Origin: a virus
Direction: 5' to 3' (one strand)
Length of the DNA stretch: 30,292 nt
IMG/VR virus record: IMGVR_UViG_3300033153_006458
Location: 1-30,292 of that record
The position numbers were made by a program, and so were the translations under genes. Under the pieces are notes generated by a model. The model had not been told where the DNA came from and did not search any database. It saw nothing but the letters and a program-made list of their open reading frames with translations. Shown here one piece after another: positions 1,656 to 29,465 of this stretch; position 1 is the stretch's first letter; each line of letters starts with the position of its first letter.

Positions 1656-1656
1656 C

Positions 1657-2076
1657 ATGGCACTTTCCGCACAAAGAGACACGCTAGAAAAAGCGTCAGG
1701 ATTTTCTACGCCTACCGGCCGCGGCGCATCAGCGTCCGTGACCATTTATAAGGGCGCGCTCGTTGTCTTCAACGGCGAATTTCTAGAGCCTGGCACCGCT
1801 GCCACTGGCTTGATTGCTGTCGGTCGCGCAGAGCTCGACACTGACAACGCGAGCGGTGGTGATGGCGACGTCACCGTCGAGGCGCGTAGTGGGATCTTTC
1901 GTTGGAACAATAGCGGCAGCGATGCCGTCCCCGCCACCCAGGTGGGTAGCGAATGCTTCATCGAAGACGATGAGACTGTCAGCGCAACGGATGACACCGG
2001 CGCGCGTTCGGCTGCTGGATTCGTCTACGAAGTAGACGCGGATGGCGTCTGGGTTGCCACGGGCTTCCCTATCTAA
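1657..2076 (+). CDS. Small head decoration or capsid cement-like protein
   Basis: The protein has 139 residues from the ATG at 1657, which is preceded by AAAGGCGG at a suitable distance; an in-frame ATG at 1612 inside the protease gene is less likely. It begins MALSAQRDTLEKASGF and is rich in Gly, Asp, Thr and Val with predicted beta strands and no membrane segment. Residues such as GLIAVGRAE and AAGFVYEVD resemble small capsid-stabilising proteins found next to major capsid genes. It lies between the protease and the gpT-type capsid gene, the slot of Mu gp33. The decoration role is inferred from position, size and composition. Confidence 0.6.
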   Translation: MALSAQRDTLEKASGFSTPTGRGASASVTIYKGALVVFNGEFLEPGTAATGLIAVGRAELDTDNASGGDGDVTVEARSGIFRWNNSGSDAVPATQVGSECFIEDDETVSATDDTGARSAAGFVYEVDADGVWVATGFPI

Positions 2077-2087
2077 AGGATTAAAAA

Positions 2088-2990: not shown

Positions 2991-3009
2991 TCAATAGGAG
3001 GTATGGCCG

Positions 3010-3462
3010 GTGGCTCAATACGCAAGCACAACAGATCTAGCAAGCGTTGGGCTGCCGGCCGTTGCACTGTCGGGCGTTCCGCTCGCACAGCAGGATGAAT
3101 TTTTATCGCAGGCCGGTGGGCTGATCGACACCTACCTACAATCGCAATACACGTTACCGATCACCGGCTCGACGGGGCCGCCTAACACGTATCCGGGATC
3201 GCTCGTGCGCTGCAATATCACGCTCGCATGTTACGAGCTGCTGACGTTCCGCGGATATAACCCCGACGAATACGATCAGAACTGGCGCCTCAAATACGAG
3301 GACGCGATCAAGTGGCTGACGTCGCTGGCTAAGGGCGAAGTGTCGCTACTGCCAGGCGATGACGCTACGCCAACGCTGCACGAGGGTGCGCCGCGCGTGT
3401 TTTCGTTCGGCAGCCCACGCGTAAACGCAGGCCCAGAAGCAAACAAAAGGCGCGGTTGGTAA
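3010..3462 (+). CDS. Head-tail connector protein, DUF1320 (Mu gp36-like)
   Basis: The protein has 150 residues. It begins with the typical 'YAS..DL' segment and continues through a helical region with LIDTYLQSQYTLPI and LACYELLTFRG, then KYEDAIKWL..LAKGEVSLL, the pattern of DUF1320 proteins such as Mu gp36. These small helical proteins belong to the gp6-like connector group at the head-tail joint. The start is a GTG at 3010 chosen by the strong AGGAGGT at 2996-3002; the ATG at 3003 is in another frame. The C-terminal tail is basic and probably flexible. The assignment rests on pattern recognition plus its place right after the capsid gene. Confidence 0.8.
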   Translation: MAQYASTTDLASVGLPAVALSGVPLAQQDEFLSQAGGLIDTYLQSQYTLPITGSTGPPNTYPGSLVRCNITLACYELLTFRGYNPDEYDQNWRLKYEDAIKWLTSLAKGEVSLLPGDDATPTLHEGAPRVFSFGSPRVNAGPEANKRRGW

Positions 3463-3463
3463 C

Positions 3464-3889
3464 ATGATCAAAGTGTCGGGCGACTTCGCGGCGCTGGCCG
3501 ACATGCGCCGACGCTTGGCCAAGCTCGGGCAGACGAACCGTGAGATCGTGCGAGAGTTTGAATCCGTAGCCGTCAGGGAGCTGGATCGCACTTTTGGCCG
3601 CAGGCAGAGCCCATACGGCCGGCGGTGGAAGGCGCGAAAGACAAGGCGCAGCAATCCGTTGCTTGAGGAGACTGGCGCGCTTCGTGGAAGCGTTACCGGG
3701 CACCGAAAAGGCGCGCTTGGGTTCGGCGTCAAGTACACCGATCACAAAGCTGCGTGGCATCACAATGGTACATCCCGAGGCATTGATGCTCGCCGGCTTG
3801 TTCCTTTTAGCGGCCGGCTTCCAGCAAAGTGGAAGAAGCGCTTTCAGGTTGTATTTAAGCGCCGCATGCGGGCGGCGTTGGGCTTCTAA
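3464..3889 (+). CDS. Virion morphogenesis / tail completion protein (Mu gpG-like)
   Basis: This 141-residue basic protein (pI clearly high: many Arg and Lys) has the features of the phage virion morphogenesis family: an N-terminal helix with LADMRRRLAKLG, then F.RRQSPYGRRWKARK, LLEETGALRGSV and a later WHHNGT segment. The 'G..W..L....LL..TG.L..S' layout is the family signature. Family members act at the head-tail interface. The gene starts one base after the connector gene, and its stop overlaps the next start (TAATG). In Mu, G lies before I, so its place after the gp36-like gene is a rearranged order seen in many Mu-like prophages. Confidence 0.78.
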   Translation: MIKVSGDFAALADMRRRLAKLGQTNREIVREFESVAVRELDRTFGRRQSPYGRRWKARKTRRSNPLLEETGALRGSVTGHRKGALGFGVKYTDHKAAWHHNGTSRGIDARRLVPFSGRLPAKWKKRFQVVFKRRMRAALGF

Positions 3890-4407
3890 TGTCAGCGATC
3901 CAGCAGCTCGTCGACGACATTCACGGAGACGCGACGCTTGTCGCTCTTGTGGGCGGCAACTACGCGATCGGCAGGCTGCCGCTCAAGGAGAACAACTCAC
4001 CGCCGCGCGTCGTATGGATCCCGGTAGACGGTGAGATCCAAGCCACGGACAACATCGGCGGCCGAGTCAACGGCACCGACAAGCGGCGCCAGGTACGGAC
4101 GCGCCTACAGAACTTTGAAGTCAACGTGTGGGGCACTGACGTGGCCAACACTGAGGACATCATGGACGCGATCGTCGCGGTTGGCTGGCGGCATGATGTT
4201 GGCTCGATCTCGTTTGGCTCGTTCTCATGGTTCACACAGCAGCCGGCGACGGCTGACTACGCAGAGCTCGGCCAAAAAGTGGTGATGGAAGTGAGCATCA
4301 AGATCCCGATCCATGACTACACGCTGCCGCTCACGGACATCGACGCCGAAGGCCACATTGTGACTTTTGTGAGTGACACCACAGGGATCCCAGAGGTTAT
4401 TTGCTGA
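3889..4407 (+). CDS. Tail terminator-like protein (Mu gp37/gp38 region)
   Basis: The protein has 172 residues. The N-terminal helix with QQLVDDIHGD and the following strands, with VVWIPVDGEI, NFEVNVWG and VMEVSIKIPI, look like the alpha/beta fold of tail terminator proteins, which cap the tail tube and join it to the head. The position after the morphogenesis gene and before the sheath is the expected one. It overlaps both neighbours by a base or so (TAATG at the start, TGATG at the end), indicating coupled translation. I cannot assign a named family with certainty, so the functional call rests mainly on order and predicted strand layout. Confidence 0.6.
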   Translation: MSAIQQLVDDIHGDATLVALVGGNYAIGRLPLKENNSPPRVVWIPVDGEIQATDNIGGRVNGTDKRRQVRTRLQNFEVNVWGTDVANTEDIMDAIVAVGWRHDVGSISFGSFSWFTQQPATADYAELGQKVVMEVSIKIPIHDYTLPLTDIDAEGHIVTFVSDTTGIPEVIC

Positions 4408-4730
4408 TGCCTACAGACGAAGAGATCGCACCGGACTCCGAGCCGAAGCCAAAGCCAAAGCGCAAAAAGGCCAAGCCGAGCGGCGAGGCCAAGACGCCTG
4501 ACGAGTGGTGCGCGCAGCTCGGCCACATAAAGATGATGCGACGCGCAGGCAAGCGCGTGGCCGTTGCCTCGTGGCAGCACAACGCCGCCAAGAATCTGCA
4601 CCGCTGGCAGCAGCACGCGCACCACGCAGGCGCACCGATCCAACTCACACAAAAAGACTACGAAGCGGCACTTGATGCCGCGGCAGCGAGCCCGCTAGTT
4701 CCGCACCGCGGCGCGTTGGGCAACTACTAA
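4407..4730 (+). CDS. Small Lys/Pro-rich N-terminus protein before the sheath, unknown function
   Basis: This 107-residue protein begins at the ATG in the TGATG overlap; the TTG at 4401 would add two residues. Residues 1-35 are low-complexity with alternating Lys and Pro (KPKPKRKKAK), probably disordered. The rest is compact and helical with EWCAQLGHIKMMRRAGKR, several His and Trp residues, and a final YEAALDAAA helix. The gene sits between the terminator-like and sheath genes, where Mu has small genes of unknown function. I do not recognise a family. A role in head-tail joining or sheath assembly would be a guess from position. Confidence 0.65.
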   Translation: MPTDEEIAPDSEPKPKPKRKKAKPSGEAKTPDEWCAQLGHIKMMRRAGKRVAVASWQHNAAKNLHRWQQHAHHAGAPIQLTQKDYEAALDAAAASPLVPHRGALGNY

Positions 4731-4742
4731 AGGGCAAAACAA

Positions 4743-6179
4743 ATGACGATCCCAGGGCAGACATTAACCATTCTCGATCCAGGTCTTGGCCTGGTCGAGC
4801 CCGCGGTGACAACGCCGCTATACCTTGGCGCCAGCGAGTTGGGCGCAAACAACGTCCTTGTGAGCGTGTCCAACAAAGTCGACGCCGTTGAGGCGTTCGG
4901 CCAGGGCCCGTTATCAGAGGCCATTTGCAGATGCCTGGACGTTGCTGGCGGCCCAGTCTTGGGCATGCGCCTCAACGGCTCCGTGGCTTCGACAATCGGC
5001 GCCGTCACCAAGACGGCGGTTGGCACGTCAACCGGAACGCTAGCCGCAACCGGCACGGCTCTCGATGCCTACGAGGTACTCGTTGAGATTGTCACGACTG
5101 GCGATCTCGGAGCGGGCGCTTTCAAATACTCGCTCGATGACGGGTACACCTACAGCGAGGGCACGGTGATCCCGGCTGGCGGAACCTATGCGATCCCAGA
5201 GACGGGCGCCGTTCTGACGTTCACGCCGATGGCCGGCCCGATCTTCTTCGAAGACGGCGATGTCTTCGAGTTTGATTGCACGGCCCCCTATTACGGCACC
5301 GGCGACGTTGCCGCAGCAGTTGCGGCCCTGCTCGCTGACACGACTCCTTGGGCATTTATGGTGCTTACAGGGACTCCTGCAAGTGCGGCGGACGGGGCCA
5401 CCATGTTCGGGGCGCTCGAGACGCACCTGGCATCGTTTGAGAACGTGTTCCGCTACGTGCGCGCGCTTATGGACGCGGGTGACGACACCCCCGCCAATGT
5501 GGCGACGTCATTCGGGGCCGTGGCTGATAATCGGATCTCCGTCACCTACGGATCGGCCGACACTGCCAGTAGCAAGGCGTTCCCGGGTTGGGGCACGCCG
5601 AAGCGATCGGGTGTCAATCTCTTTGGGGCTCGCGCGGCCAAGGAGCTGATCAGCACCGACTTGGCACGCGTCGCAAGCGGGCCGCTCGCCGGTGTGCAGG
5701 CCATTAGCCACGACGAGTTCCTGAACGAGGTTCTTGACGTCCAGCGGATCAGCACGCTGCGGACGTGGGCGGGCCGCGCTGGTTTCTTCATCACAAATTG
5801 CCGGCTCAAGAGCTCGGCCGGATCGGACTTCCGGTACTGGCAGCATGGCCGCGTGATGGATGTGGCCTGTAAAACCACCTACGAGGCGCAGCAGTTTTTC
5901 ATCTCCCAAGGCGTGCGCACCAACGACGACGGATCGATCAATGAGCTAGACGCGCGCCGCTTCGAGACTCGCGGACTCTCGGCGCTCCAGGCGCAGCTGA
6001 CGCAGCCTTCCAACGCGGAGGGAACGCAGGGCCACGTGTCAGAGCTTAGCTACACAATCGATCGACTCAACAACGTACAGACTACAGAAACCGTGCTGAG
6101 CGAAGTGGCGATCCGTCCGCTTGGCTACGCTAAGTTCATCACTACGACGATCGGCTACACGCTGAGCGTGGGAGCATAA
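4743..6179 (+). CDS. Contractile tail sheath protein (Mu gpL-like)
   Basis: The protein has 478 residues, a usual size for the sheath subunit of Mu-like phages. The N-terminal handshake strand region is followed by an extra beta-rich insertion at about 90-180. The conserved C-terminal half holds residues such as WAFMVLTG, FENVFRYVRAL, FITNCRLK and YWQHGRVMDV. It ends in the strand-rich IRPLGYAKFITTTIGYTL. The gene is preceded by AAAGGGCAAAACAA and followed three bases later by the tube gene, the invariant sheath-tube order. It defines this virus as a contractile-tailed (myovirus-type) phage or a tailocin-like derivative. The head genes favour a phage. Confidence 0.87.
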   Translation: MTIPGQTLTILDPGLGLVEPAVTTPLYLGASELGANNVLVSVSNKVDAVEAFGQGPLSEAICRCLDVAGGPVLGMRLNGSVASTIGAVTKTAVGTSTGTLAATGTALDAYEVLVEIVTTGDLGAGAFKYSLDDGYTYSEGTVIPAGGTYAIPETGAVLTFTPMAGPIFFEDGDVFEFDCTAPYYGTGDVAAAVAALLADTTPWAFMVLTGTPASAADGATMFGALETHLASFENVFRYVRALMDAGDDTPANVATSFGAVADNRISVTYGSADTASSKAFPGWGTPKRSGVNLFGARAAKELISTDLARVASGPLAGVQAISHDEFLNEVLDVQRISTLRTWAGRAGFFITNCRLKSSAGSDFRYWQHGRVMDVACKTTYEAQQFFISQGVRTNDDGSINELDARRFETRGLSALQAQLTQPSNAEGTQGHVSELSYTIDRLNNVQTTETVLSEVAIRPLGYAKFITTTIGYTLSVGA

Positions 6180-6181
6180 AA

Positions 6182-6631
6182 ATGGCTGACTATCCTTTAA
6201 TCAATGGCCACAAATACGACTGGAGCTCGGTCGAGGTTGATCTCGGCGAAGCCGGGATCTTCACCGGCATCAAAGAGCTGACGTTCTCGCATTCGCTGGA
6301 GCCCGGGATCGTGCGCGGCACGCGCGCCGAGAAGCTGGCACGGACGCGCGGCGAGTATGACGCCGAAGGCTCGATCGTCATGTGGACGCAGGATTACAAC
6401 GAGTTTATCGCGCTGCTGGGCAACGGCTACATGGAGGCGTCTTTCAACGTCACCATGAGCTATTCAACGCCCAACCAGCCAACGGTGACGGTGCGCCTCA
6501 TCGGCTGCCGGATCGTGAGCGCCGAGGGCGGAGGCACACAAGGCACCGATCCGCTTGAGGTTAGCTGCTCGTTAAATATTATGCGAGTGGAGGAGAACGG
6601 GGTAAACCCGCTTCAAGATCAACTGGTTTAG
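6182..6631 (+). CDS. Tail tube protein (Mu gpM-like)
   Basis: The protein has 149 residues. It opens MADYPLINGHKYDWSSVEV and has the strand pattern of tail tube proteins, including TGIKELTFSHSLEPG, RGTRAEKLARTRGEYDAEGS as a Mu gpM-like 'G....GE..A.GS' segment, then MWTQDYNEFIALLG. Tube subunits stack as hexamers inside the sheath and share ancestry with Hcp of type VI secretion. It starts two bases after the sheath stop. A 32-base gap with a strong AGGAGG (6649-6654) precedes the chaperone gene, fitting a step in expression. Size, order and pattern all agree. Confidence 0.85.
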   Translation: MADYPLINGHKYDWSSVEVDLGEAGIFTGIKELTFSHSLEPGIVRGTRAEKLARTRGEYDAEGSIVMWTQDYNEFIALLGNGYMEASFNVTMSYSTPNQPTVTVRLIGCRIVSAEGGGTQGTDPLEVSCSLNIMRVEENGVNPLQDQLV

Positions 6632-6663
6632 ATTTGTGAGCGCTCTGGCAGGAGGCGCAATCA

Positions 6664-6990
6664 ATGGCAAAAGAAAAGATCGACGAGCTGGCGCGCATGC
6701 GCGAGCAGAACCCAGGACACCAAGAATACGAGATCCCCGATCAGGGATCCTTCATCTTCCGCAGGCCGCCGCGCGCAGCGTTTAATCGCTTCGCTAGCGA
6801 GGTTGCGGACGACAAGAAGGACAAGATCACCGCGATGCATAAGTTTGTTCGCGCGTGCCTTGTGTATCCATCGGCGCCAGAGTTTGAGGCGCTGCTCGAT
6901 GCATATCCGGCGTTTCTGATCGACATTGCCACGGACTTGCAAGCGGTGGCCGGTGGGGAGATCCCTGGCCTTGTAAAAAAAGGCGGATAG
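6664..6990 (+). CDS. Tail assembly chaperone, short (unshifted) form
   Basis: This 108-residue product is the zero-frame form of the tail chaperone, equivalent to lambda gpG or Mu gp41. It has a compact N-terminal part with residues such as EYEIPDQGSFIFRRPPRAAF, then helices with FVRACLVYPSAPEFEALLDAYP. It ends GLVKKGG just after a run of seven A residues. Chaperones of this type bind the tape measure protein and are made in two lengths by ribosomal frameshifting. It sits between the tube and tape measure genes, the universal place for this pair. The start has AGGAGG ten bases upstream. Confidence 0.82.
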   Translation: MAKEKIDELARMREQNPGHQEYEIPDQGSFIFRRPPRAAFNRFASEVADDKKDKITAMHKFVRACLVYPSAPEFEALLDAYPAFLIDIATDLQAVAGGEIPGLVKKGG

Positions 6991-7163
6991 CATGGGAACG
7001 GTCGCAGCGTGATCTATACGCCGCGGCCGGTAGTCTCGTGGCACTGCTCGACAAAGAGAAAGATGAAGAGGGCGAAGCCACGGACAGCGCCTTTGTGGGC
7101 GCCATGCTGATCGCCGAAGCAATCCAAATCCTACGCGCATTTCTGAAAGGTTTTAGTAAATAG
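6664..7163 (+). CDS. Tail assembly chaperone, -1 frameshifted long form
   Basis: The zero-frame gene reaches A-AAA-AAA at 6975-6981 in the correct phase (codons AAA AAA), followed by GGC GGA TAG. A one-base slip back continues through 60 more codons to TAG at 7161-7163, three bases before the tape measure start. The product would have 166 residues (106 + 60). The added part reads as real protein: AWERSQRDLYAAAGSLVALL, then an acidic stretch and a helix with AEAIQILRAFLKGF. It otherwise leaves a 175-base gap with no rightward gene. This matches the conserved programmed frameshift of dsDNA phage tail genes (lambda G/GT, and predicted for Mu gp41/42). No experiment shows it here. Confidence 0.8.
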
Positions 7164-7165
7164 AC

Positions 7166-8887
7166 ATGGCCGACGCTGACTTTACAGTTGCCTTGAAGGA
7201 CAAGGTAACCGGGCCAGCTAACCGCATGGGCGGAGCCGTCGGCAAGCTCGGCGCAAAGGTGCGCGGCGTTGGAGCAGACGCGGGTGTGTTTGGTGGTGGC
7301 ATGGCGAAGGCCGTCGCCGTCGGCAACATCATGGCCAAGACGGCAATCGCTGCCGCCAAGGCTGTGCTCCGCTTGGGCTTAGCGCTTGGAAGGGCCGTGC
7401 TTGGCGCAGCAGCATTCCGCGAGAACATCACATTCTCGCTGACAAAGTTTCTCGGAGACTCTGGCAAGGCCAAAAGGAACCTTGGGGAGATCGCCCAAAT
7501 ATCCGGCGATCTGGGGCTTAACTTCCAGACAAGCGCGGAGCAGTTTCGGGACTTGGTTAGCGCTGGATTTGGAACAGAGGCCTCCAAGGAGCTGCTCCGA
7601 TTCAAGGCGGATCTAATTGCTGTGGGCGGTGGTGGGGCGCAGGCGGCCGAGCGGGCCACCAGCGCGCTCGATCAGTTTAAGAAGGCGATGGCCACCGGGC
7701 GATTTGAGGCTGACGGCTTTGTTCGCGTGCTGGAGCAAATCCCAGGTGTCACCAAGGATATGCTCCTTGAAAAAATGGCCGATCAGACTGGCAAGTCTCT
7801 TGAGAAGCTGAAAAAGACAGAGATCACCAAGCTACCGGTTCAGGAGCTGATCGATGCATTCAAGGAGGCCACGTTAGAAGCCACGGGCATGGGCAAGCAT
7901 GGGCAGCTGGCAGCGGAGCGGATCGAGACAACGACGAGCGGCGCGATCGATGCTCTGAAAAACAAGTTCACAAACCTGCCCGATACCATAGCCGCAGGCC
8001 TCGACGAGTTTGAAGGGCTAGGCGATGCCGTCCGCGAGCTGCTCGCGTTTATGGATTCCGAGGACGCGGCCGACGCGATGCAAATGCTCGCCGATGGCGT
8101 GACCATGGCCGTTAAGGCCTTTGTTGCAGCTATTCCCATCGCGCAGAAGTTCTTGAAAGGGATACAAAGCGGATTCCAGGCAGCGAGCCCAGCGATCGAC
8201 GCGCTGTCCGATGCAATGTCAGCGATGTCTGAAGACGGCGACAGCCTCGAAGCGCTGGGCATGATTTTCGAGGGACTTGGCCATTTGATTGGCTTTTCTC
8301 TTGGGGCCATCGTGGCAGCGGTGCAGCTGGTTGTGCTCAGCTTCCAAATGCTGATCGCTGTGTGGGATGGCCTCTCTGCTGCGGCCACGGCCGTGTTTGA
8401 TTTTTTCAGCAGCCTGGTGGACACCGTGAGCGAGGCCGCTGGCGAGCTTGGGATCTCCGCCGATGGCGTTGGCAGCGCTATCATCGATGGCTTGATCGCC
8501 GGTATCATGGGCGGCGCTGGCGCCGTCACCGCTGCGCTTATCGGGATCGCGGAAACTGCAATCGCAGCCGGCCTTGATGTTCTTGGTGTATCGTCGCCGT
8601 CAAAAGTATTTGAGGATATTGGCTATAATACGATGGAAGGCTTCCGGCTTGGGATCGATCGCGGAGGCGCTGCGATCCCTGCTGGCGTTGCTGGGCAGCT
8701 CGATCCGGCGGCGCTCACAGGCGCCATGAGGCCGGCCAACAATGTCAGCGTGTCGGCGCCTGTTGGCGGGATCACTGTCAACGCAGCAGAGGATCCAGAG
8801 GCCACGGCCGCGGCTGTCAAATCGGTGATGCTCAACGAGCTAGGCGATGCCTTCGAGCAGATGTCTTTGCAGGTAGGGGCGGCATAG
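7166..8887 (+). CDS. Tail length tape measure protein
   Basis: The protein has 573 residues, which is short for the family. It is rich in Ala and Gly and strongly helical. Residues 1-70 hold Gly/Ala-rich amphipathic sequence, about 80-260 resemble the TP901-type tape measure core (FRENITFSLTKFLGDSGKA, FEADGFVRVLEQIPGVTK), and about 365-400 contain a hydrophobic segment (LIGFSLGAIVAAVQLVVLSF) often seen in these proteins. The C-terminus carries the common signature GVSSPSKVFEDIGYNTMEGF. At about 1.5 angstroms per residue, a tail near 85 nm is predicted. It follows the chaperone pair and precedes baseplate genes. The long leftward frame opposite it is a shadow. Confidence 0.88.
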   Translation: MADADFTVALKDKVTGPANRMGGAVGKLGAKVRGVGADAGVFGGGMAKAVAVGNIMAKTAIAAAKAVLRLGLALGRAVLGAAAFRENITFSLTKFLGDSGKAKRNLGEIAQISGDLGLNFQTSAEQFRDLVSAGFGTEASKELLRFKADLIAVGGGGAQAAERATSALDQFKKAMATGRFEADGFVRVLEQIPGVTKDMLLEKMADQTGKSLEKLKKTEITKLPVQELIDAFKEATLEATGMGKHGQLAAERIETTTSGAIDALKNKFTNLPDTIAAGLDEFEGLGDAVRELLAFMDSEDAADAMQMLADGVTMAVKAFVAAIPIAQKFLKGIQSGFQAASPAIDALSDAMSAMSEDGDSLEALGMIFEGLGHLIGFSLGAIVAAVQLVVLSFQMLIAVWDGLSAAATAVFDFFSSLVDTVSEAAGELGISADGVGSAIIDGLIAGIMGGAGAVTAALIGIAETAIAAGLDVLGVSSPSKVFEDIGYNTMEGFRLGIDRGGAAIPAGVAGQLDPAALTGAMRPANNVSVSAPVGGITVNAAEDPEATAAAVKSVMLNELGDAFEQMSLQVGAA

Positions 8888-9627
8888 TGGCGGCGCTCGC
8901 TTTCTGGGATGAGCGCACCGGAGCGCTTACGGAGTGGGATCTCCTCATCCTGGCCGGCGAAGTGTGGCCCGGGATCGTCACCATCGACGGCCAAGGGGTG
9001 AGCCGCCAGATCGATGTTAAAAAACCGAAGGGCGGCGATCAGGCTCGGCTTACTGACGAGGGCTATCGAAACGGAAAATTCAAAGCCACGCTGGAGATCT
9101 GGGAGCGCGCGCAGTGGGAGGAATTGCAACGGCTGTTGCCGCTCATCCATCCGCGCCGCAAAGGTGGAGCTCGCACGCCATTGCAGATCATCCACCCAGC
9201 GCCCAACCTGCTCGGGATCGATAACGTATATATCACGCGCATGCCGATCATACGGCTCGATCGGCGCAGCCTGATCGGCGAGGTTGTGATCGAGTGCATC
9301 GAATGGACGGAGGCGCCCAAGCCCGTCAAGAAGGCCGCAGGCCGCGGTGGCGGATCGTGTAAGCAACCGGCCGCGCCGCCAACAACCGGCGATCCGGTGG
9401 CTGATGTAAACGCGCTGGCAGCATACGCGCAGGCACTGGTGGCCGCTGAGCAGTGTGGGCCACAGGCCAGCGATGTGCCGAAGACGATCGGCGGCGTGGC
9501 CGGCGCATTGCTCAACCCTGGCGGCCTTGTCGCTGACTATCTGACGGAGACATGGGCCGAGAACGAAGCCAACGCCAACGCCAACAACGACGACGAGGGT
9601 GACGGCGGATTCTGGGACATCTTCTAA
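8887..9627 (+). CDS. Baseplate/tail hub-associated protein downstream of tape measure
   Basis: This 246-residue protein starts with GTG overlapping the tape measure stop (TAGTG). Residues about 25-140 form a beta-rich domain with GIVTIDGQGVSRQIDVKKPK, YRNGKFKATLEIWERAQWEE, LLPLIHPRR and HPAPNLLGI. I recognise this as the type of adaptor placed after tape measures in contractile-tail phages. From about 150 there is a Gly/Pro/Ala-rich linker, and the end is acidic with repeated Asn-Ala. Mu has the DNA-circularisation/hub protein gpN in this slot, but no clear gpN similarity is visible. The role in tail tip assembly is inferred from order. Confidence 0.62.
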   Translation: MAALAFWDERTGALTEWDLLILAGEVWPGIVTIDGQGVSRQIDVKKPKGGDQARLTDEGYRNGKFKATLEIWERAQWEELQRLLPLIHPRRKGGARTPLQIIHPAPNLLGIDNVYITRMPIIRLDRRSLIGEVVIECIEWTEAPKPVKKAAGRGGGSCKQPAAPPTTGDPVADVNALAAYAQALVAAEQCGPQASDVPKTIGGVAGALLNPGGLVADYLTETWAENEANANANNDDEGDGGFWDIF

Positions 9628-9630
9628 TCC

Positions 9631-10299
9631 ATGGCACTCGTAACGATGGGCGGCGCCCCCGTGCTCAAAGCTCGGATCGAGGAGCCGCTGGCCGGCTTCT
9701 GGGTGGCTGACGTTGAGGTTGACACTTTCGAGACGCTCGAGGGTGCCCAGACAATCAGCTTCGGCGACGATGTGAGCTTCGCGGGCCAGGTATGGCGCGG
9801 AGGCGTCGAGCAAGGCCGCTGGCTCGGGCGCATTGTCGCCGGCAGTGCTACGCGTGCTACGGTTGAGCTCGACGCGAAAAACTACCTTGGCGCTAGCGTG
9901 TCCACCATTCTGGGTGACGTGCTGGCGGCAACCGGCGACACACTAGCGCCCAGCAGCGACAGCAGCGTGCTAGCGGGGCTTTTCCCGCGCTGGCACAGGG
10001 CCAGGGGGAGCGCAGCGAAAGCGCTCCAGCGCCTATCTGACGGCCTTGGTGTCAACGTCCGCGGCCTGCGCTCTGGTGATGTGTTTTTCGGATCGGAGAC
10101 ATATCCGGACTTTCAGATCGAAGACACGATCGAGATCGATCGATACCCACAGCGCGGAATGGTGGTGCTTGCCCCCGCGCTGCCGTTGCTGCTGCCAGGG
10201 ATCACATTTGAGGATCGGCGCGTAAGTTACGTGGTCACAACCTCCACTGCTCACGGGCTGCGTCAGCAGCTATGGTTTGACGATGGCGGCACCAACTGA
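9631..10299 (+). CDS. Baseplate hub protein (Mu gpP / P2 gpD position)
   Basis: The protein has 222 residues with a beta-rich N-terminal half (IEEPLAGFWVADVEVDTFETLE, listed in part: LAGFWVADVEVD) and a helical middle that includes SVSTILGDVLAATG and KALQRLSDGLGVNVRGL. The repeated alpha-beta layout and the short helix 'AAKALQRLSDGLG' resemble hub proteins, which form the ring at the end of the tail tube. It is smaller than Mu gpP (about 380), so one domain may be reduced. Start ATG 9631 lies three bases past the previous stop; ATG 9646 is an alternative. Its end overlaps the spike gene by 17 bases. The call rests on order plus moderate resemblance. Confidence 0.62.
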   Translation: MALVTMGGAPVLKARIEEPLAGFWVADVEVDTFETLEGAQTISFGDDVSFAGQVWRGGVEQGRWLGRIVAGSATRATVELDAKNYLGASVSTILGDVLAATGDTLAPSSDSSVLAGLFPRWHRARGSAAKALQRLSDGLGVNVRGLRSGDVFFGSETYPDFQIEDTIEIDRYPQRGMVVLAPALPLLLPGITFEDRRVSYVVTTSTAHGLRQQLWFDDGGTN

Positions 10300-10834
10300 T
10301 CGGATCAAAGGATCGCTGCTCGCGTTTCTCGATGCGGTGATCGGGTCGCGGATCGATTATCATGCGCTCTACCCGTGCACGGTAGCCGGCCAGGGAGCGG
10401 GCGGAGGGCTGGAGCTGTTGCCCGATGACGCGCGCATGCGAGGCGCTGGGCTTGGCGACGTTCCGATCCGCACTGGTGCGCCGGGATACGTTTACGCCGT
10501 GCCTGTCAAGTCTCGCGTTTTGCTCGGCTTCGAGGCCGGCGATCCGTCGCGCCCTTATGCCTCGCTCTGGGAGTCGGCCACCGGCGTCGACACGCTGACA
10601 TTTGACGGCGGATCGGAAAGCGTCGCGCGAACAAATGACGCCACAAACCCGGGATCGTTTTTTATGCAGGTTGATTCGGTTAGCAATGAGCTGATTGTTA
10701 GCTATGTGCCCGCCGGCGTCGTGGTGCCGATCGAGCTTTTCAGGATAGTGCCGGGATCCTTTGGCGCCTTTTCGCCGGTGCCGGTGCCAATGGCTGGGCT
10801 GATTATCGAAGGCAACGACAAGCTGCAAGCGTGA
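10283..10834 (+). CDS. Baseplate spike / assembly protein V-like (Mu gp45-type)
   Basis: The protein has 183 residues from ATG 10283; a TTG at 10277 would add two. Residues about 20-100 look like the OB-fold at the base of contractile tail spikes: YPCTVAGQG, LPDDARMRGAGLGDVPI, YVYAVPVKSRVLLGFEAGDP. The region after that has Gly/Ser/Asp-rich strands and ends MAGLIIEGNDKLQA. Spikes of this type puncture the outer membrane after sheath contraction. The gene overlaps the hub gene by 17 bases and precedes the gp25-like gene, as in Mu. No obvious metal-binding tip motif (HxH) is visible, so the needle may be short or capped by another protein. Confidence 0.68.
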   Translation: MAAPTDRIKGSLLAFLDAVIGSRIDYHALYPCTVAGQGAGGGLELLPDDARMRGAGLGDVPIRTGAPGYVYAVPVKSRVLLGFEAGDPSRPYASLWESATGVDTLTFDGGSESVARTNDATNPGSFFMQVDSVSNELIVSYVPAGVVVPIELFRIVPGSFGAFSPVPVPMAGLIIEGNDKLQA

Positions 10835-10838
10835 CACC

Positions 10839-11267
10839 ATGGCGATCGACTTTGAAAATCCCTTAGGCGTGGACTTTGCTTGCGTCGATGATCTTGACGC
10901 AAATCTGTCGCTAGTGGAGGGGCGCACGGCGCTCGCGCAGTCTACGGCGCGCAGGATCATCACGCCACGCGGCGGGCTGTATTACGATCCCAACTATGGG
11001 ACAGACATCCGCGGCCGACTGCACCGGCCTTTTCCGGCTGCGCTTACGGCCAGGCTAGTCGAGCAGGAAGCGCTCAAGGATGAGCGCGTGGAGAACGCTG
11101 GGGCATCGGTGGAGTTTGTCGAGGTTCCGCTGGCATCTGATAAGACGGACGGGGATTTGATAGTTACGATCAACCTGCTGGACGTCACCAACACAGCCTT
11201 TGATCTGACTAGTCAAATCTCACCTAGCGGCACAATCACAGTGGACGAAATCAACGAGCAATTCTGA
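10839..11267 (+). CDS. Baseplate wedge protein, gp25/gpW-like (Mu gp46)
   Basis: The protein has 142 residues. The N-terminal half shows the wedge pattern: short strand, helix, then RIITPRGGLYYDPNYGTDI, where a PRG......YG.D layout is characteristic of this group in Mu-like phages. The helix LTARLVEQEALKDERVENA and following strands with GDLIVTINLLD complete the fold. These proteins form the inner ring of the baseplate and are also related to TssE. The stop overlaps the gp47-like start by one base (TGATGG). Position and size fit Mu gp46. Confidence 0.78.
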   Translation: MAIDFENPLGVDFACVDDLDANLSLVEGRTALAQSTARRIITPRGGLYYDPNYGTDIRGRLHRPFPAALTARLVEQEALKDERVENAGASVEFVEVPLASDKTDGDLIVTINLLDVTNTAFDLTSQISPSGTITVDEINEQF

Positions 11268-12412
11268 TGGCACTTTCTCTGCTACAGCTTCGCACGATCC
11301 TAAATCGTGATCAGGCATTGGCCGAGCTGCTCGAGACGCTCCAAAGCCTTGGCTTTAATACAACGGCCTGGCAGTCGGGCAGCATACAGCTGACGCTGCT
11401 GACTACGTTCGCTGACTCCTACGCGCGCATGACGAGCGTGGCCAGCTCGCTTAGCATGCTAGCCTTCAACGCGACGAGCATCGGCCAATCGCTGACGGCC
11501 TTTTCGGACTCGCACTACGACAATCAGCGCTTGGCCGCTGCGTCCACCGAGGGTGTCGTAGTGCTAACCGGTGCAGCGGTTGGGCCGCCACACACGATCA
11601 CCGTGGGGCAGCTCGTGGCAACCGACGCCACTGGTCGCAGCTACCGCAACACGACGGCCGGAACGCTGGCAGCCTCTGGCACGCTAGAGCTCACATTCCG
11701 CGCCGACATTGTTGGATCTGACGGCAACATCCCATCCAGCACGCTCACGATCCTACAAACGCCACTGGCCGGCACCACGATCGACAATCCTCCGATCCCT
11801 GCCACTGGCACATGGATCACATCGCTGGGCAACGATGAAGAAACAGACGCGAGCCTGCGCCTGCGCAACACGAGCAAGTGGGGCACGCTCTCCTACTCCG
11901 ATCCGGCCGATCGATACGAGCACTATGTTCGCACCGCGGTGCCAACCGTTCCGCGCGTTGAGATCGACGCCGACGATCCAGGCGGCCCAGGGACGATCCA
12001 CATTTATGTGGCGGGCCCGACTGCTACAGCTACGCCGGTTGACGTTGCCGCTGCCCAGGTAGAAGCAGATCGCATCAAAAATCCCACTGCCGACGTTACA
12101 TGCTTTGCAGCGACCGAGCAGCCACAAGCCTTCGTCTATGACTGCTACATCACCGCTGGGCTCAACACGGCCGACACGCAGACGGCCGTGGAGCAGGCGT
12201 TGACGGACTATGTCAACGGGCTGCCTATCAGCGGAACGCTTTTCCCCATACTTGGGACGGGCAACTTCGTTTTTTCCGAGGCGCTCGCGGCCATGACATC
12301 CGTGGTAGGCGTCGAGCGGATCGACATGACAACGCCGCCCGGCAACGTGCCGATCACGGCTCACGCAATCATGATTGACGGCGGCCAGGCGGCCAGCTTC
12401 TTCAGCGTATAA
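11267..12412 (+). CDS. Baseplate J-like protein (Mu gp47)
   Basis: The protein has 381 residues, close to the family norm. It begins with the helical segment LLQLRTILNRDQALAELLET, then has the strand-rich middle with VVVLTGAAVGPPHTITVGQL and LTFRADIVGSDGNIPS. The conserved 'GG.DEE.D..LR.R' region appears as LGNDEETDASLRLRNTS, followed by YEHYVRTAVPTVPRV and GGPGTIHIYV. Baseplate J proteins form the wedge with gp48-type proteins and transmit the contraction signal. It follows the gp46-like gene by overlap and precedes the gp48-like gene by one base. This is one of the firmest calls in the tail block. Confidence 0.86.
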   Translation: MALSLLQLRTILNRDQALAELLETLQSLGFNTTAWQSGSIQLTLLTTFADSYARMTSVASSLSMLAFNATSIGQSLTAFSDSHYDNQRLAAASTEGVVVLTGAAVGPPHTITVGQLVATDATGRSYRNTTAGTLAASGTLELTFRADIVGSDGNIPSSTLTILQTPLAGTTIDNPPIPATGTWITSLGNDEETDASLRLRNTSKWGTLSYSDPADRYEHYVRTAVPTVPRVEIDADDPGGPGTIHIYVAGPTATATPVDVAAAQVEADRIKNPTADVTCFAATEQPQAFVYDCYITAGLNTADTQTAVEQALTDYVNGLPISGTLFPILGTGNFVFSEALAAMTSVVGVERIDMTTPPGNVPITAHAIMIDGGQAASFFSV

Positions 12413-21264: not shown

Positions 21265-21300
21265 GCGCCATCGTCCCAAGCGGGCGGTGGCGCTTTTTTT
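21265..21300 (+). terminator. Rho-independent terminator of the late operon
   Basis: A GC-rich hairpin runs from GCGCCATCGTCC (21265-21276) to its complementary arm ending GGTGGCGC at 21293, with a five-base loop (CAAGC) and two G-T pairs. Seven T follow directly. It lies 20 bases after the endolysin stop and points rightward. It also separates rightward late genes from the convergent methyltransferase operon, whose last stop is at 21299. Confidence 0.88.
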
Positions 21301-22156
21301 ATTTTGTATTGAGCAGCCGGATCACTTCGCCGATTACCTGCGCGCATTGCGGCACCACGGCATTTCCTAACGCTTTCAGCCGGGCTCTGTCCAGCCCTGT
21401 GGAACGCCCATCAGCCACTCCACAAACCGGGGGGACAGGTGCCCACCCTTCGTGCGCTCGTGGTGCTCGTGCAGACTCTGGCCATGCACCACCACATCCG
21501 TCAGGCTCACACCCGGCTTGGCACTGCTGCCGGCCTTGCGACGGCTCCCGCTCGCTTTTGCATCGCCTGCTGTTGGCGTGGGCAACATCCCACTGCGCGC
21601 CAGGCTTTGCAGGCTGTGCCGCACGGGCCCAACCCGGCCCGCGGCCCCTCCCCGATTGCTGCCGTAAGAGCAAGCGCTTGGCGTGGGCAACAATAAAAAT
21701 CCGCCGCCGCAGGTGCGGTGCTCCAACATCCGCCGCCGCAATCGGGATCGGTAGCGTCTCGTATCCGAGCTGTCCCAAGCTCCCACGGATGGCATCAACC
21801 CAGCGCTTGGCCCCGCTTGCGACATTTTCGACGACGATCCATTCAGGGGCAAGCTCGCTTGCGAGGCGGTGGAACTCCCACCATAGGCCGCTTCTAGCGC
21901 CATTAAGGCCAGCTCCCGAGCCTGCTGCGCTGACGTCTTGACACGGAAATCCTCCGGCCAGCAAGTCGACGTGGCCGAGGTTGTGCGCTCCGCACCCCCT
22001 GATGTCCTCGTACCGATCGACGTGAGGCCAATGCCTGGCGAGCACACGCCGACAATAGGGATCGATCTCGATCTGCCATGTGGTGCGCCCGATCCCAGAT
22101 AATTCGAGTCCATAGTCCAGTCCTCCGATCCCGCTGAATGCGCTGCCGATCTTCAC
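21299..22156 (-). CDS. DNA (cytosine-5) methyltransferase, orphan
   Basis: The protein has 285 residues. C5-MTase motifs are in order: I GSAFSGIGGLDYGLELSG (SAM binding), IV GGFPCQDVSAAG with the catalytic Cys, VI VVENVASG with ENV, VIII GAPHLRRRIFIVA, and X LKALGNAVVPQCAQVIGEVI. The target-recognition region between VIII and X is Arg/Gly-rich and short, so the specificity cannot be read. No restriction endonuclease is beside it, so it is an orphan that probably protects phage DNA. The start is GTG 22156, overlapping the upstream gene (GTGA). It is the last gene of the leftward operon and converges on the late terminator. Confidence 0.9.
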   Translation of the reverse strand: MKIGSAFSGIGGLDYGLELSGIGRTTWQIEIDPYCRRVLARHWPHVDRYEDIRGCGAHNLGHVDLLAGGFPCQDVSAAGSGAGLNGARSGLWWEFHRLASELAPEWIVVENVASGAKRWVDAIRGSLGQLGYETLPIPIAAADVGAPHLRRRIFIVAHAKRLLLRQQSGRGRGPGWARAAQPAKPGAQWDVAHANSRRCKSEREPSQGRQQCQAGCEPDGCGGAWPESARAPRAHEGWAPVPPVCGVADGRSTGLDRARLKALGNAVVPQCAQVIGEVIRLLNTK

Positions 22157-24991: not shown

Positions 24992-25933
24992 CTATTTTTT
25001 TGGATAAAAACCGAAACGACGACGGCTCTCGCCGCGGTGCCGATCGGTGATGGCGTCGGCGATTGGACTGCCGGCGATTTCCTCGGCGACGGCCCGCCAC
25101 TTGATGGATCCGGCCTGCGCCTTCCACGTGGCTCGGCCCCAGTCGCCGGCCATCGCGCTGTGCTCTCCGAGCAGGCCGCACATTTCGGCCTGTAGCACGC
25201 GCTCACGGTCGCGCGCCGCTTTGATGGATGTGCGTAGCGTCAGCAGCTCGGCGGCGATCTCCGTCGCTCCTGGCGGCGCCTCGGCGGCGTCTAGCGTCTC
25301 GACGGGATAGCGCAGCCGCGCGAGCGTCAGCAGTGCTTCGCCGTCGCCTTCCGGCGCGACGTTGCCCACCACATTGCGGAGCCAAAAATCGCGGCCGATG
25401 TCCATCAGGCTCTTGATCATCGACTCATCCCGCGGCGTGTAGTGGCGCTGATAGTCGGTGCCCCCGATGACGGGCGCCACGTGCACGCCGTCCAGATCGG
25501 CGCACTTGGCTTGCCACTGCGCTTGAGCGCGCACGTACCCCGGCACGCCTTCGCGCCAGTGGTGCGCGAGCCGCGAGCCTACCATCTTGATCTCAAGGCC
25601 CGTCCCATCCGGCAGCAGCCGATCGGGCGTAGCGCTAGCCCATGGCTCACCCGCGCAAACCGCCGCGCTGGTGGGCTCGACGAGCAGCGCCGGATCGATC
25701 GCCAGATCCTCTGCCACCATGCGCGCGATTGCTGGCTCGAACGCGTGGCCGATCCTCATCGCGCCTTCTGGCGGCGACGCCTCGATCATCGGTGGGATCT
25801 CCCCATCGCGGCCGCGGCGTTTGCGCATCCACACGTCCAGCGCCCCGCCCCACGGTGAGATCCCTGCGACGGCGGCGATCTCACTCGCGCCGAGCGTCCG
25901 CGTTCGAGCTTCCAGCTGATCGGCGCTTAGCAT
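24992..25933 (-). CDS. YqaJ-type viral recombinase exonuclease
   Basis: The protein has 313 residues from ATG 25933, chosen for GGGAGG eight bases upstream. It shows the YqaJ/lambda-exonuclease nuclease motifs: LGASEIAAVAGISPWGG (the 'G.S...G.SP' start), GHAFEPAIARMVAE with Glu, ASATPDRLL then LEIKMVGS giving the D...E.K core, and RAQAQWQAKC (Q motif). Beyond about residue 215 it is helical and includes ELLTLRTSIKAARDRE. It would resect double-stranded ends 5'-to-3' and load the annealing protein, as in Red alpha/beta. The seven-base overlap with the upstream gene supports one operon. Confidence 0.85.
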   Translation of the reverse strand: MLSADQLEARTRTLGASEIAAVAGISPWGGALDVWMRKRRGRDGEIPPMIEASPPEGAMRIGHAFEPAIARMVAEDLAIDPALLVEPTSAAVCAGEPWASATPDRLLPDGTGLEIKMVGSRLAHHWREGVPGYVRAQAQWQAKCADLDGVHVAPVIGGTDYQRHYTPRDESMIKSLMDIGRDFWLRNVVGNVAPEGDGEALLTLARLRYPVETLDAAEAPPGATEIAAELLTLRTSIKAARDRERVLQAEMCGLLGEHSAMAGDWGRATWKAQAGSIKWRAVAEEIAGSPIADAITDRHRGESRRRFGFYPKK

Positions 25934-26268
25934 TGCGACGCCTCCCAGCGCATGGCGTCGATGCTCTCGCGCTCTGCGAGCAGCCCGCTGCCGTCTTCGA
26001 CGTATCCGGCATGATGCAAAATGCTGCGCATTTGCTGCTCCAGACGCACGCGCGTAAAGCGCCACCGCTCGCCGGATGTGTAGGGATCGCTGCTCTGATC
26101 GAGAGCTTCGGACAGCGCGACGATCGCGACGTTGGCCCAGTCGGCCGGCGTCAGATCAAGCGCCCCCAGCGCTCCGTCGATCTGTGCCATCTTGACTTCG
26201 GAGCTGTGGATCGGCCGCCGCGCATTGCGGAGCGTGTTGGGTGGAGTGATCGGCTTTTTTTCGCTCAT
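25927..26268 (-). CDS. Unknown protein, first clear gene of the recombination operon
   Basis: The protein has 113 residues from ATG 26268 (MSEKKPITPPNTLRNARR), with GGGAG about nine bases upstream; the longer frame from 26319 is less likely. The middle is helical (AQIDGALGALDLTPADWANV, IVALSEALDQ, RFTRVRLEQQMRSILHHAG). It overlaps the exonuclease start. It has no membrane segment. Small genes upstream of phage exonucleases are often host-nuclease inhibitors or single-strand-binding factors, but nothing in the sequence proves that here. Confidence 0.65.
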   Translation of the reverse strand: MSEKKPITPPNTLRNARRPIHSSEVKMAQIDGALGALDLTPADWANVAIVALSEALDQSSDPYTSGERWRFTRVRLEQQMRSILHHAGYVEDGSGLLAERESIDAMRWEASQC

Positions 26269-26743: not shown

Positions 26744-27057
26744 TCGAACTGGGCGATTTGTGCGATCTCGATCAGGGGCTCGGTGAGCCCGGACGCGATG
26801 CCATTTGTGTCACATGCGGCATGCGACGCGGAGAGCACGCGCTATTCGGTCGCGATAGGTGCCCGCTTTTCGCTGCCGGTGAGCATGGATGGTGGCTCTG
26901 CGGCTGGAAGGATTCCCGCTTTGCGCCGGCCGGCCCATCGATGCCCCGCGCGCGCTGCGTTTGCCGCAACTGCTGCGAGCCGCTTAGCGCCCACAGTGGC
27001 CTAAAATGCCGCACCGAAGAGGGCCGCCACTTCGTGCCCGGAGCGAGGTTCCGATAA
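26740..27057 (+). CDS. Cys-rich zinc-binding small protein
   Basis: The protein has 105 residues from GTG 26740 (GTGA overlap). It has two Cys clusters: AICVTCGMRRGEHALFGRDR followed by CP, and CVCRNCCEPLSAHSG followed by KC. The spacing C-x2-C...H...C and C-x2-C...H..C suggests one or two zinc sites; similar 'CG..R.EH' proteins occur in other phages. The stop overlaps the replication gene start (TAATG). It may assist replication or bind DNA; that is inferred from neighbours. Confidence 0.72.
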   Translation: MIELGDLCDLDQGLGEPGRDAICVTCGMRRGEHALFGRDRCPLFAAGEHGWWLCGWKDSRFAPAGPSMPRARCVCRNCCEPLSAHSGLKCRTEEGRHFVPGARFR

Positions 27058-27902
27058 TGTGGTGGCGCATCGACGATGATCTACATAGCCATCCCAAGGC
27101 CGTAGCCGCTGGCGATGCCGCGCTTGGTCTCTGGGTGCGGCTTGGTAGCTGGAGCGCCAAGCACGGGACGGGCGGACGCATAGCAAGTGCCATAGCAAGT
27201 GCCATGGCAAGTGATATGGCAAAACTCTCGCGGCTCGTGGATGTGGGGTTGCTCGATCAGGACGACGACGGCGGCGACTATTGGCTTCACGACTGGGACG
27301 AGTACAACCCGACGGCGGACGAAGCAGCGGCGCTCAAGAAAAAGCGCAGCGAAGCCGGCAAGTTGGGCGCCCGGCGCCGGTGGGGCACCCCGGACGACGA
27401 TGGCAAACGCCATGGCAAAACCCATAGCAAACGCAATGGCAAACGCATGGCAAACGGCATAGCAAAACGATGCCCCGTACCCGTACCCGATCCCGATCTA
27501 AATACACAAACACGCGCGCGAGGGCTTCCGAAGGAATGGCAGCCGAGCCAGGCCCATCGCGATCTGGCGACGAGCAACGGGATCGATCTGGATCTCTCCG
27601 TCGTCGCTTTCCGGGGCCACTACGACGGCAAGCGCTGCAAGAGCTGGAATGGGAGATTCGCCACATGGCTGGCCAATGAAATCCGATTTGCCCGTGAGCG
27701 CGCTCAGCGCGCCGCTAAGGGGCCCAAGGGATCGTACAGGCGCAGCCGCGCTGGCGGCGGGATCGTCCGTTCTGACGCCGATGGTAACGAGCTATGCCCC
27801 GTTTGCGGCGAGGGTTTCACCCACACCCCGCAGGGCGGTTACATCTGCAAAAAATGCCGGCTGCCGGCGGCGACGATTATCCAAAGGAGCGCGCGAAAAT
27901 GA
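27057..27902 (+). CDS. Replication initiation protein with winged-helix N-terminus and embedded iterons
   Basis: The protein has 281 residues from ATG 27057. Residues 1-75 match the winged-helix start of phage initiators: WWRIDDDLHSHPKAVAAGDA, LGLWVRLGSWSAKHGT, then LVDVGLLDQDDD. About 110-140 is Arg/Lys-rich with GKRHGKTHSKRNGKR, coded by one of two iteron-like arrays. About 155-215 resembles DnaT-type domains (LPKEWQPSQAHRDLATSNGI, FRGHYDG, WNGRFATWLANE). The C-terminus has a zinc-finger pattern CPVCGEG and CKKC. Such initiators bind iterons and load a helicase, as lambda O does. Start chosen for the TAATG overlap. The initiator call is inferred from pattern, the iterons and the neighbours. 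Confidence 0.75.
   Translation: MWWRIDDDLHSHPKAVAAGDAALGLWVRLGSWSAKHGTGGRIASAIASAMASDMAKLSRLVDVGLLDQDDDGGDYWLHDWDEYNPTADEAAALKKKRSEAGKLGARRRWGTPDDDGKRHGKTHSKRNGKRMANGIAKRCPVPVPDPDLNTQTRARGLPKEWQPSQAHRDLATSNGIDLDLSVVAFRGHYDGKRCKSWNGRFATWLANEIRFARERAQRAAKGPKGSYRRSRAGGGIVRSDADGNELCPVCGEGFTHTPQGGYICKKCRLPAATIIQRSARK
27179..27226 (+). repeat. Iteron-like block A: four 12-bp tandem units
   Basis: Units at 27179, 27191, 27203 and 27215 read CATAGCAAGTGC, CATAGCAAGTGC, CATGGCAAGTGA and TATGGCAAAACT. The core is ATRGCAA in all four with exact 12-base spacing. It lies inside the initiator gene, coding the IASA-type repeat. Confidence 0.85.
27399..27469 (+). repeat. Iteron-like block B: six units of the same core, 11-12 bp spacing
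   Basis: The core ATRGCAA recurs at 27400, 27412, 27424, 27436, 27447 and 27459, for example GATGGCAAACGC, CATGGCAAAACC and CATAGCAAACGC. The step between the fourth and fifth units is 11 rather than 12, which shifts the reading frame over the motif, yet the DNA core is kept. Together with block A this makes ten copies in 291 bases. Confidence 0.85.
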
Positions 27903-28387: not shown

Positions 28388-28599
28388 GCCTTGAGCGCTA
28401 TGGCTTCGATCCGCCTCGCTCTGGGCACCCCTGGCACTGGCAATGCGACGGGTGCGACGAGCGCGCGATCACGAGCTGGCCGCTTGACTGGCGCGAGCGC
28501 GGCACGATGCGGCCGGCTGGCTGGCGCCCAACGCGGCGAGAGATCGGGATTTTATGTGCAGCATGCGCGGCAGCGATGCCGGGGAAGGTGGGGCGATGA
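28384..28599 (+). CDS. Small zinc-ribbon protein
   Basis: The protein has 71 residues from GTG 28384 (GTGA overlap). It contains C-x2-C (WQCDGCDE) and a second C-x2-C (LCAACAAAMPG), with Trp-rich sequence WPLDWRERGTMRPAGW between. The layout is a simple four-Cys zinc ribbon. It is coupled by ATGA to the PP-loop gene. Function unknown, possibly an accessory factor for neighbouring DNA enzymes. Confidence 0.68.
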   Translation: MSLERYGFDPPRSGHPWHWQCDGCDERAITSWPLDWRERGTMRPAGWRPTRREIGILCAACAAAMPGKVGR

Positions 28600-29465
28600 G
28601 CTTCGACATTGCAGCCGAGGATTTGGAAAAGTTAGAAGGGTGCCGCGTTGTGGCCAGCGTGAGCGGCGGAAAGGATAGCGCCGCGCTGAGCCTATGGCTC
28701 ACCGAGCAAGGGATCGATCACGATCGCGTCTTTGCGGATACTGGCTGGGAGCACCCCGACACCTACGCCTATCTTCGCGGCCCGCTGACAGAGAAGCTGG
28801 GGCCAATAACCGAAGTGCAATCCAAGCTTGGCGGCATGGTGGAATGGGTACGGCATAAGGGGATCTTTTCTAGTCGGCTTCGGCGATGGTGTACGGAGAA
28901 GCTGAAACTGGAACCGATCCGGGCGCACCTTGCGGCGCTCGACTTTGACTGTATCAGTGCCGTTGGCGTCAGGGGGGGGGAATCGAAGGCGCGCTCCCGG
29001 ATGTCTCGATGGGAGTATGGCGAATACCTCGACGCGGACGTGTGGCGCCCGCTCATCCTCTGGACCGAGCAGGATGTTATAAAAATGCACCAGAGGCACA
29101 ATTTGCCACCCAACCCCTTATACCTAAAGTACAACGTGGGGCGCGTTGGTTGTTGGCCGTGCATTCATTCGCGGAAGGCCGAAATCCGGAAGGTTGCAGC
29201 CGCTACGCCAGAGAGGATCGATCTGATCCGGGCCCTTGAGGGCGAAGTGCGGAGCGCGATAGAAACCAAGGCGACAGCCCGCGGTGAGAAATTCGACGGC
29301 AACGGGTATACGTTTTTCAAGCGCGGGGGTGGGACGGGTACTGTGGCCATCGATGAGGTTGTGGCGTGGTCGCGCACGGCCCATGGTGGCCGACAGCTGA
29401 CGCTGTTGGACACCGAGCCGGACGGCTGCGTCAGGTGGGGCATGTGCGAGGGTCATAGCGAGTGA
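28596..29465 (+). CDS. PP-loop ATPase, PAPS reductase-like family
   Basis: The protein has 289 residues from ATG 28596 (ATGA overlap). The N-terminal part has the PP-loop: VVASVSGGKDSAALSLWL, with SGGKDS for ATP pyrophosphate binding. It is followed by FADTGWEHPDTYAYL, SRLRRWCTEKLKLEPI (Cys with Lys), GVRGGESKARSRM, then GCWPCIHSRKAEI with C-x2-C and a last Cys pair (GCVRWGMC). Members use ATP to activate sulfate or other acceptors; some, such as DndC, act in DNA modification. A G9 tract at 28972-28980 is in frame. The PP-loop call is firm; the substrate is not. Confidence 0.82.
   Translation: MSFDIAAEDLEKLEGCRVVASVSGGKDSAALSLWLTEQGIDHDRVFADTGWEHPDTYAYLRGPLTEKLGPITEVQSKLGGMVEWVRHKGIFSSRLRRWCTEKLKLEPIRAHLAALDFDCISAVGVRGGESKARSRMSRWEYGEYLDADVWRPLILWTEQDVIKMHQRHNLPPNPLYLKYNVGRVGCWPCIHSRKAEIRKVAAATPERIDLIRALEGEVRSAIETKATARGEKFDGNGYTFFKRGGGTGTVAIDEVVAWSRTAHGGRQLTLLDTEPDGCVRWGMCEGHSE

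Follow-up and report, generated by a model that had tools for sequence, protein, structure and literature searches.

Ten copies of a 7-bp word, ATRGCAA, lie on the + strand within 286 bp (27180–27465) of the window, by which we mean the whole 30,292-bp stretch of viral DNA that was analysed. They fall inside the gene for a putative replication initiator, which raises the question of whether they serve as DNA or as codons and, if as DNA, whether they belong to a replication origin. A sequence-only reading had placed them in two blocks and proposed a candidate origin; its coordinates and spacings are borne out by the motif positions.

27180–27222, + strand: iteron block A, four ATRGCAA at 12-bp steps (starts 27180, 27192, 27204 and 27216)
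27400–27465, + strand: iteron block B, six ATRGCAA at steps of 12, 12, 12, 11 and 12 bp (starts 27400, 27412, 27424, 27436, 27447 and 27459)
27057–27902, + strand: replication-initiator CDS, 281 aa (PHROG 2447, AF2 model, homologue annotation)
27057–27305, + strand: DNA for the predicted winged-helix N-domain, residues 1–83 (AF2 model, structure comparison)
27345–27383, + strand: DNA for the box RSEAGKLGARRRW, residues 97–109, the C-terminal half of predicted helix 87–109 (model; co-occurrence with ATRGCAA)
27525–27716, + strand: DNA for the predicted helical C-domain, residues 157–220 (AF2 model; weak DnaT-like match)

The array and the gene that contains it

The two blocks are separated by a 184-bp step, and Tandem Repeats Finder assigned a period of 12 to both. 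The window is a complete IMG/VR record and the density comparison spans all 30,292 bp, in which ATRGCAA occurs 13 times, with only three copies (582, 1106 and 6664) outside the array; the word is thus not common elsewhere. In 300 second-order Markov windows no 291-bp span had more than three, as compared with the 10 observed, and across 5,000 synonymous recodings of the initiator gene the count averaged 1.57 and never exceeded seven. The array is real, and these direct repeats inside the initiator gene exceed chance.

By HMM and alignment, we place the encoded protein directly in the PHROG 2447/3926 family. It matches PHROG 2447, ‘replication initiation protein’, with an E-value of 1.5e-27 over residues 1–149 (the profile covers the N-terminal domain) and phrog_3926 with an E-value of 2.5e-25; its initiator activity is putative, being read from annotation and synteny. 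An AlphaFold2 (AF2) model with a mean pLDDT of 82.9 predicts a winged helix (residues 1–83), a basic helix (87–109), a disordered linker (116–151), a helical domain (157–220) and a zinc-ribbon-like end. In this model, block A encodes helix 2 of the winged helix and the beginning of helix 3, and block B together with the tract 3′ of it encodes the disordered linker. VIA-align matched the N-domain model to the RepA_N structures 4pt7 (Z 6.6, rmsd 2.7, 76 aligned), 4pql (Z 6.5) and 5kbj (Z 6.5), with unrelated winged helices intermixed and all Z below 8. Searches of Pfam up to E 0.1 gave no match to RepA_N (PF06970) or the lambda O family, and Foldseek of the model found nothing in the PDB below E 0.001. 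The C-domain matched Pfam DnaT at E 0.0013, under the DnaT cut-off.

No helicase gene was identified in the 30-kb record. GC skew falls over ∼21–27 kb and rises near the initiator, where gene orientation also changes. The structural genes at 315–12412 are of contractile-tail type (head maturation protease, major head protein, tail sheath, baseplate wedge) and are combined in the window with a theta-type initiator module. A C5 DNA methylase gene lies at 21299–22156, a YqaJ/RecE-like exonuclease gene at 24992–26065 and, two genes downstream of the initiator, a PAPS-reductase-domain gene at 28554–29465 (Pfam E 2e-23).

Relatives of the window protein were recovered with an alignment query; a single-protein query matched none. 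The initiator of Arthrobacter phage 1191A, 39% identical to that of the window and annotated ‘replication initiation protein’, carries ATRGCAA in two blocks of three, placed in the gene as in the window, with units 12 bp apart and 184 bp between the blocks, and a DnaB helicase gene follows it after one small gene. DnaB is also encoded close downstream in loci L128, L131 and L138, and DnaB helicase or DnaC loader genes lie downstream in several relatives. In 1191A and some ten relatives, block A occupies the position that it has in the window gene.

Selection on the repeats as DNA

The sequence-only reading had noted that the repeats change frame, and translation agrees. Block A is read as ATR-GCA codons (peptides IASA, IASA, MASD and MAKL), block B units 1–4 are read one frame later (DGKR, HGKT, HSKR and NGKR), and units 5–6 return to the first frame (MANG and IAKR). 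In a set of 33 box-bearing genes, most of them recovered by protein similarity, ATRGCAA occurs 88, 54 and 13 times in frames 0, 1 and 2, reading M/I-A, G/S-K or W-Q depending on the frame. Synonymous choice within the array segment follows the word. The Ala of [MI]A[NSKTR] is encoded by GCA in 98% of cases, as compared with 20% elsewhere in the same genes (p 6e-54); the corresponding figures are 90% and 52% for Gly GGC, 79% and 33% for Lys AAA, and 87% and 33% for the Gln of WQ as CAA. Frame-shifting 11-bp steps make up 31 of 82 in block B and none of 18 in block A (p 0.001); they are confined to the predicted disordered linker and never occur in the folded-domain block A.

The array can also leave the coding frame altogether. 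In L008, L098, L055, L107 and L093, the initiator frame ends just before or inside the array. The example that shows this best is a cultured phage, Rhodococcus phage REQ2, whose Orf70 has 119 residues and carries the box AGRKGAQATW plus two residues at its C-terminus (...AGRKGAQATWGN-stop); shortly 3′ of the stop, three ATGGCAA stand at 12-bp steps in a gap without an annotated gene. Here a winged helix and the box appear to be everything that precedes the array. Because arrays occur beyond the initiator stop codon (REQ2, L008 and others), the repeat is a DNA element. The REQ2 gap (L406, 1487–1745) also contains a 4-bp tandem tract (ACGGACGAACGGACGGACT), another type of tract beside iterons, and an inverted repeat around TTACGTAG; both are conserved among REQ2, L008 and L098.

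These data bear directly on the simplest alternative, a low-complexity linker grown by slippage at the protein level, with no function as DNA. Block B does lie in a predicted disordered segment (residues 116–151), and most steps are 12 bp, or four codons. Against this stand three frames with different peptides, 11-bp steps, fixed synonymous sites, arrays past the stop codon and the presence of ATRGCAA in a family with a different N-domain. We consider slippage extremely improbable and reject it, on the three frames, the synonymous fixation and the out-of-frame arrays. What relatives keep is the DNA word and its 11–12-bp spacing, while protein and frame change. We conclude that, as had been proposed from the window alone, selection acts on the array as DNA and not as codons. 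Runs such as MANAMANAWQND or DGKPHGKSHGK in these proteins can be translated origin DNA rather than protein features.

The box and its repeat word

A pattern scan for three ATRGCAA units at 12-bp steps matched at least 119 viral contigs. Among the viral matches listed, 54 of 119 arrays were 6-bp simple repeats, 20 were other and 45 had a box at most 420 nt upstream; among the bacterial matches listed, the counts were 83, 33 and 3 of 119. The background for a box upstream of random positions was 1%. The idea that every ATRGCAA array is an origin was rejected, many of the matches listed being 6-bp simple repeats. The array lies 3′ of the box in at least 45 viral contigs, which span PHROG-2447-type initiators and a second large group, the DUF1376/PF07120 ‘primosomal’ proteins, with a different N-domain. 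One protein profile, phrog_9474, matches both the N-part of the window protein and the C-part of a DUF1376 protein (L060), a sign that domains may have been exchanged around the iteron segment.

Every array-bearing initiator in the two main groups has the box, [AST]GxxG[AS]xxRW, just 5′ of the linker array. It was first noticed in loci selected for the array, and several contigs belong to both the array-selected and the protein-selected sets. Among 80 relatives selected by protein, 17 have a looser form of the box, 16 of them together with the array, which none of the 63 others has. With near copies removed, the PHROG-2447 kin comprise 16 genes with box and array, one with the box only, none with the array only and 53 with neither (p 7e-15); for DUF1376 the counts are 13, 2, 1 and 49 (p 9e-11). 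The sole array-only gene, L280, has Thr at box position one. After contigs from the array scan (matched by contig name), the window and 1191A were dropped, the array was still present in seven of eight box-bearing relatives. Exceptions are L163, a box-bearing PHROG-2447 relative without ATRGCAA, and L212 and L276, with zero or one copy. The looser box GAxxRW was rejected as sufficient, since DUF1376 members with RGKAGAxxRW lack ATRGCAA. A DnaD-like initiator (L056) carries ATRGCAA at 12-bp steps in DGKQDGK/DGMSHGK repeats and has no box; it is either an exception or an unrelated repeat.

Box-less relatives often have other words in the same place at 11–12-bp steps (CGAATCG, GTCACGC, AGCAAAT and CGAAGCA). 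In N-domain trees, box and array switch together; the best tree for each family shows about six changes of each, of which only two per family are well supported. This is consistent with covariation, but two are too few for significance. The most telling case is L283: on both flanks of the box-array segment it closely resembles L213, L215, L221 and L227, and inside the segment it differs, with the box AGIASANAR and (CAACACATGTTC)n repeats. On this comparison we regard L283 as a natural joint swap of box and repeats between near-identical initiators. The same second pair is found in L240. A distant DUF1376 relative, YdaU of the Escherichia coli Rac prophage, has a box (AGKASVQAR) and repeats (TGTTCAAACA) that differ from those of the window and look like this second pair. 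In E. coli K-12, the ydaU gene (L286, 5120–5977) contains TGTTCAAACA as internal repeats, a direct pair plus a near copy and an inverted copy, which are a candidate origin of the Rac prophage. A third class, with ARxAAxARW boxes and ARCAATGC/AAGCAAT words (protein SNATSNAQAM) in the DUF1376 set L207–L285, is only suggestive (AAxxRW with ARCAATGC, p 0.01 to 0.04).

Could the array instead bind some other phage or host protein, the correlation with the box reflecting common descent of a linked segment? The word is common to very different phages, and only two tree switches per family are well supported, as such a reading would allow. Nevertheless, other words occupy the same place in the gene as the box changes, up to the joint swap between near-identical initiators. 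We think an outside factor quite unlikely, because a fixed one would not follow the box.

The candidate origin

Further elements lie 3′ of the iterons:

27466–27473, + strand: junction AACGATGC, a degenerate last unit with ATGC 11 bp past the last iteron start
27474–27498, + strand: C-rich tract CCCGTACCCGTACCCGATCCCGATC of 6-bp period; the complement fits a G-quadruplex pattern
27499–27513, + strand: short AT-rich patch TAAATACACAAACAC, a possible melting start

The junction GCAAAACGATGCMCC is common to both initiator families, in different frames, and directly 3′ of it both families have a tandem tract with a unit of 5 or 6 bp (CCCG[AT] or CCCGTA in PHROG-2447 kin, TCACCT or TCACAG in DUF1376). 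Box-less genes have the tract as well as box-bearing ones; the tract therefore goes with the protein family and the iterons with the box. In 35 of 65 PHROG-2447 kin a G-quadruplex pattern matches the complement, as compared with none in the first 300 nt; as a universal second element the G-quadruplex was rejected, the DUF1376 tract being TCACCT/TCACAG. Past the last iteron, at +50 to +75 bp, mean AT content over 30 homologous loci rises only modestly, from ∼0.40 to 0.51, and in the window the GC-rich tandem tract lies between that iteron and the AT rise. An opening site, or a single-strand binding site for the initiator, are guesses at the role of the tract. Just 3′ of it, inverted repeats are visible by eye in L175 (ATGTATCTAAAGATACAT), L133 (GAAGCTTC-TAAA-GAAGCTTC), L139, L206 and L221.

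A candidate origin is the best-supported reading of the array. It is favoured because ten units stand in 286 bp as compared with at most three by chance, because selection acts at the level of DNA, and because of the covariation and joint swap of box and word, the DnaB/DnaC neighbours and the RepA_N-like model of the N-domain. In our judgement the array is probably the iteron part of a theta-type origin that lies within the gene for its own initiator. This protein would bind each ATRGCAA head to tail, one unit per helical turn, through the winged helix and the protruding basic helix 87–109 with its box RSEAGKxGAxxRW, which may act as the reading head. A nucleoprotein filament or loop would build over blocks A and B and put strain on the adjoining tandem tract and AT-rich patch until they open; the C-domain would then pass the site to a helicase or helicase loader of phage or host. 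One point against this scheme is strand opening, the tract adjoining the iterons being GC-rich in the window. Among the papers recovered, none reports binding or origin mapping for these proteins.

An alternative is that the initiator binds the repeats for autoregulation, as a transcription roadblock or for partition at a parS-like centromere, rather than for initiation. Iteron arrays often serve autoregulation, iteron-containing regions also act as centromeres, as in Bacillus phage B83 (PMC6669507), and covariation of box and word would look identical under either role. The array lies mid-gene, however, and not at a promoter; no ParA/ParM-type gene was noticed in passing among the window ORFs; in relatives, genes for the DnaB helicase and DnaC loader lie nearby; and a single initiator gene that has two blocks and then a tandem tract is laid out like an origin. 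We regard this alternative as improbable and retain the origin as the preferred reading.

The sequence-only reading had likened the locus to lambda O, in the middle of whose gene the lambda origin has iterons beside an AT-rich region (PMC7466680). The analogy of layout holds, with direct-repeat iterons mid-gene flanked by an element to be opened; the likeness does not extend to the protein family, as seen in Pfam, or to the flank, which is mainly a C-rich tandem tract in the window or a TCACCT tract. Lambda O binds its own iterons, and by analogy the window initiator would do so. Lambda iteron units are about 18–19 bp, unlike the 7-bp core at 11–12 bp of the window, and the window has an additional block, block A, inside the codons of the DNA-binding domain itself. 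Plasmid pSK41 likewise has its origin inside rep, where the encoded protein segment is dispensable (PMC5703833), and RepA of pSK41/pTZ2162 shares this layout with the window; its winged-helix N-domain resembles the predicted one of the window protein, in a ranking where unrelated winged helices are intermixed. Most RepA_N iterons are semi-palindromes that converge on a poly-A tract (PMC7145576), whereas the ATRGCAA unit is, by PWM, a plain direct repeat without a central A tract. For the RepA replicons of mycobacteriophages, the origin is described only as presumably lying inside repA or beside it (PMC7157519).

PHROG 2447/3926 members include Arthrobacter 1191A, which shares both iteron blocks, and the ‘RepA-like’ protein of Gordonia phage Hans; Gordonia and Streptomyces members are without the box and ATRGCAA, and some have other repeats. 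The records examined for these families contain no annotation of iterons or an origin. A large subset of DUF1376 (PF07120) has the box, the array and the junction, in other frames; it differs from the window in N-domain family and in its TCACCT/TCACAG rather than CCCGT tract, and no block A was seen in its members. The in-gene layout is already known, since lambda O and pSK41 have it. In the open-access literature searched, there is no report of ATRGCAA shared across initiator families with a covarying box (weak evidence, as subscription papers lie outside it), of a block inside the codons of a DNA-binding domain or of the tandem tract.

A further proposal, to which we give an even chance, is that box and iterons form a portable origin-specificity cassette, a unit of ∼100 bp exchanged intact among related initiators and perhaps across families, with box types amounting to a protein–DNA code. 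If so, a short basic helix would read a word just downstream of its own codons, and one recombination would change the specificity of the protein and its binding site together. The code would pair AGxxGAxxRW with ATRGCAA, AGxASxxAR with ATGTTCMAACA and possibly AAxxRW with ARCAATGC. If the box is the reading head, the L283 box placed in an L215-type initiator would move binding from ATRGCAA to CAACACATGTT.

Most temperate phage origins are unmapped, and a text-searchable pattern marks the likely origin in many phages. The pairing of box and word names the residues to mutate, by which initiator–origin specificity, replication incompatibility and module exchange would become directly testable.
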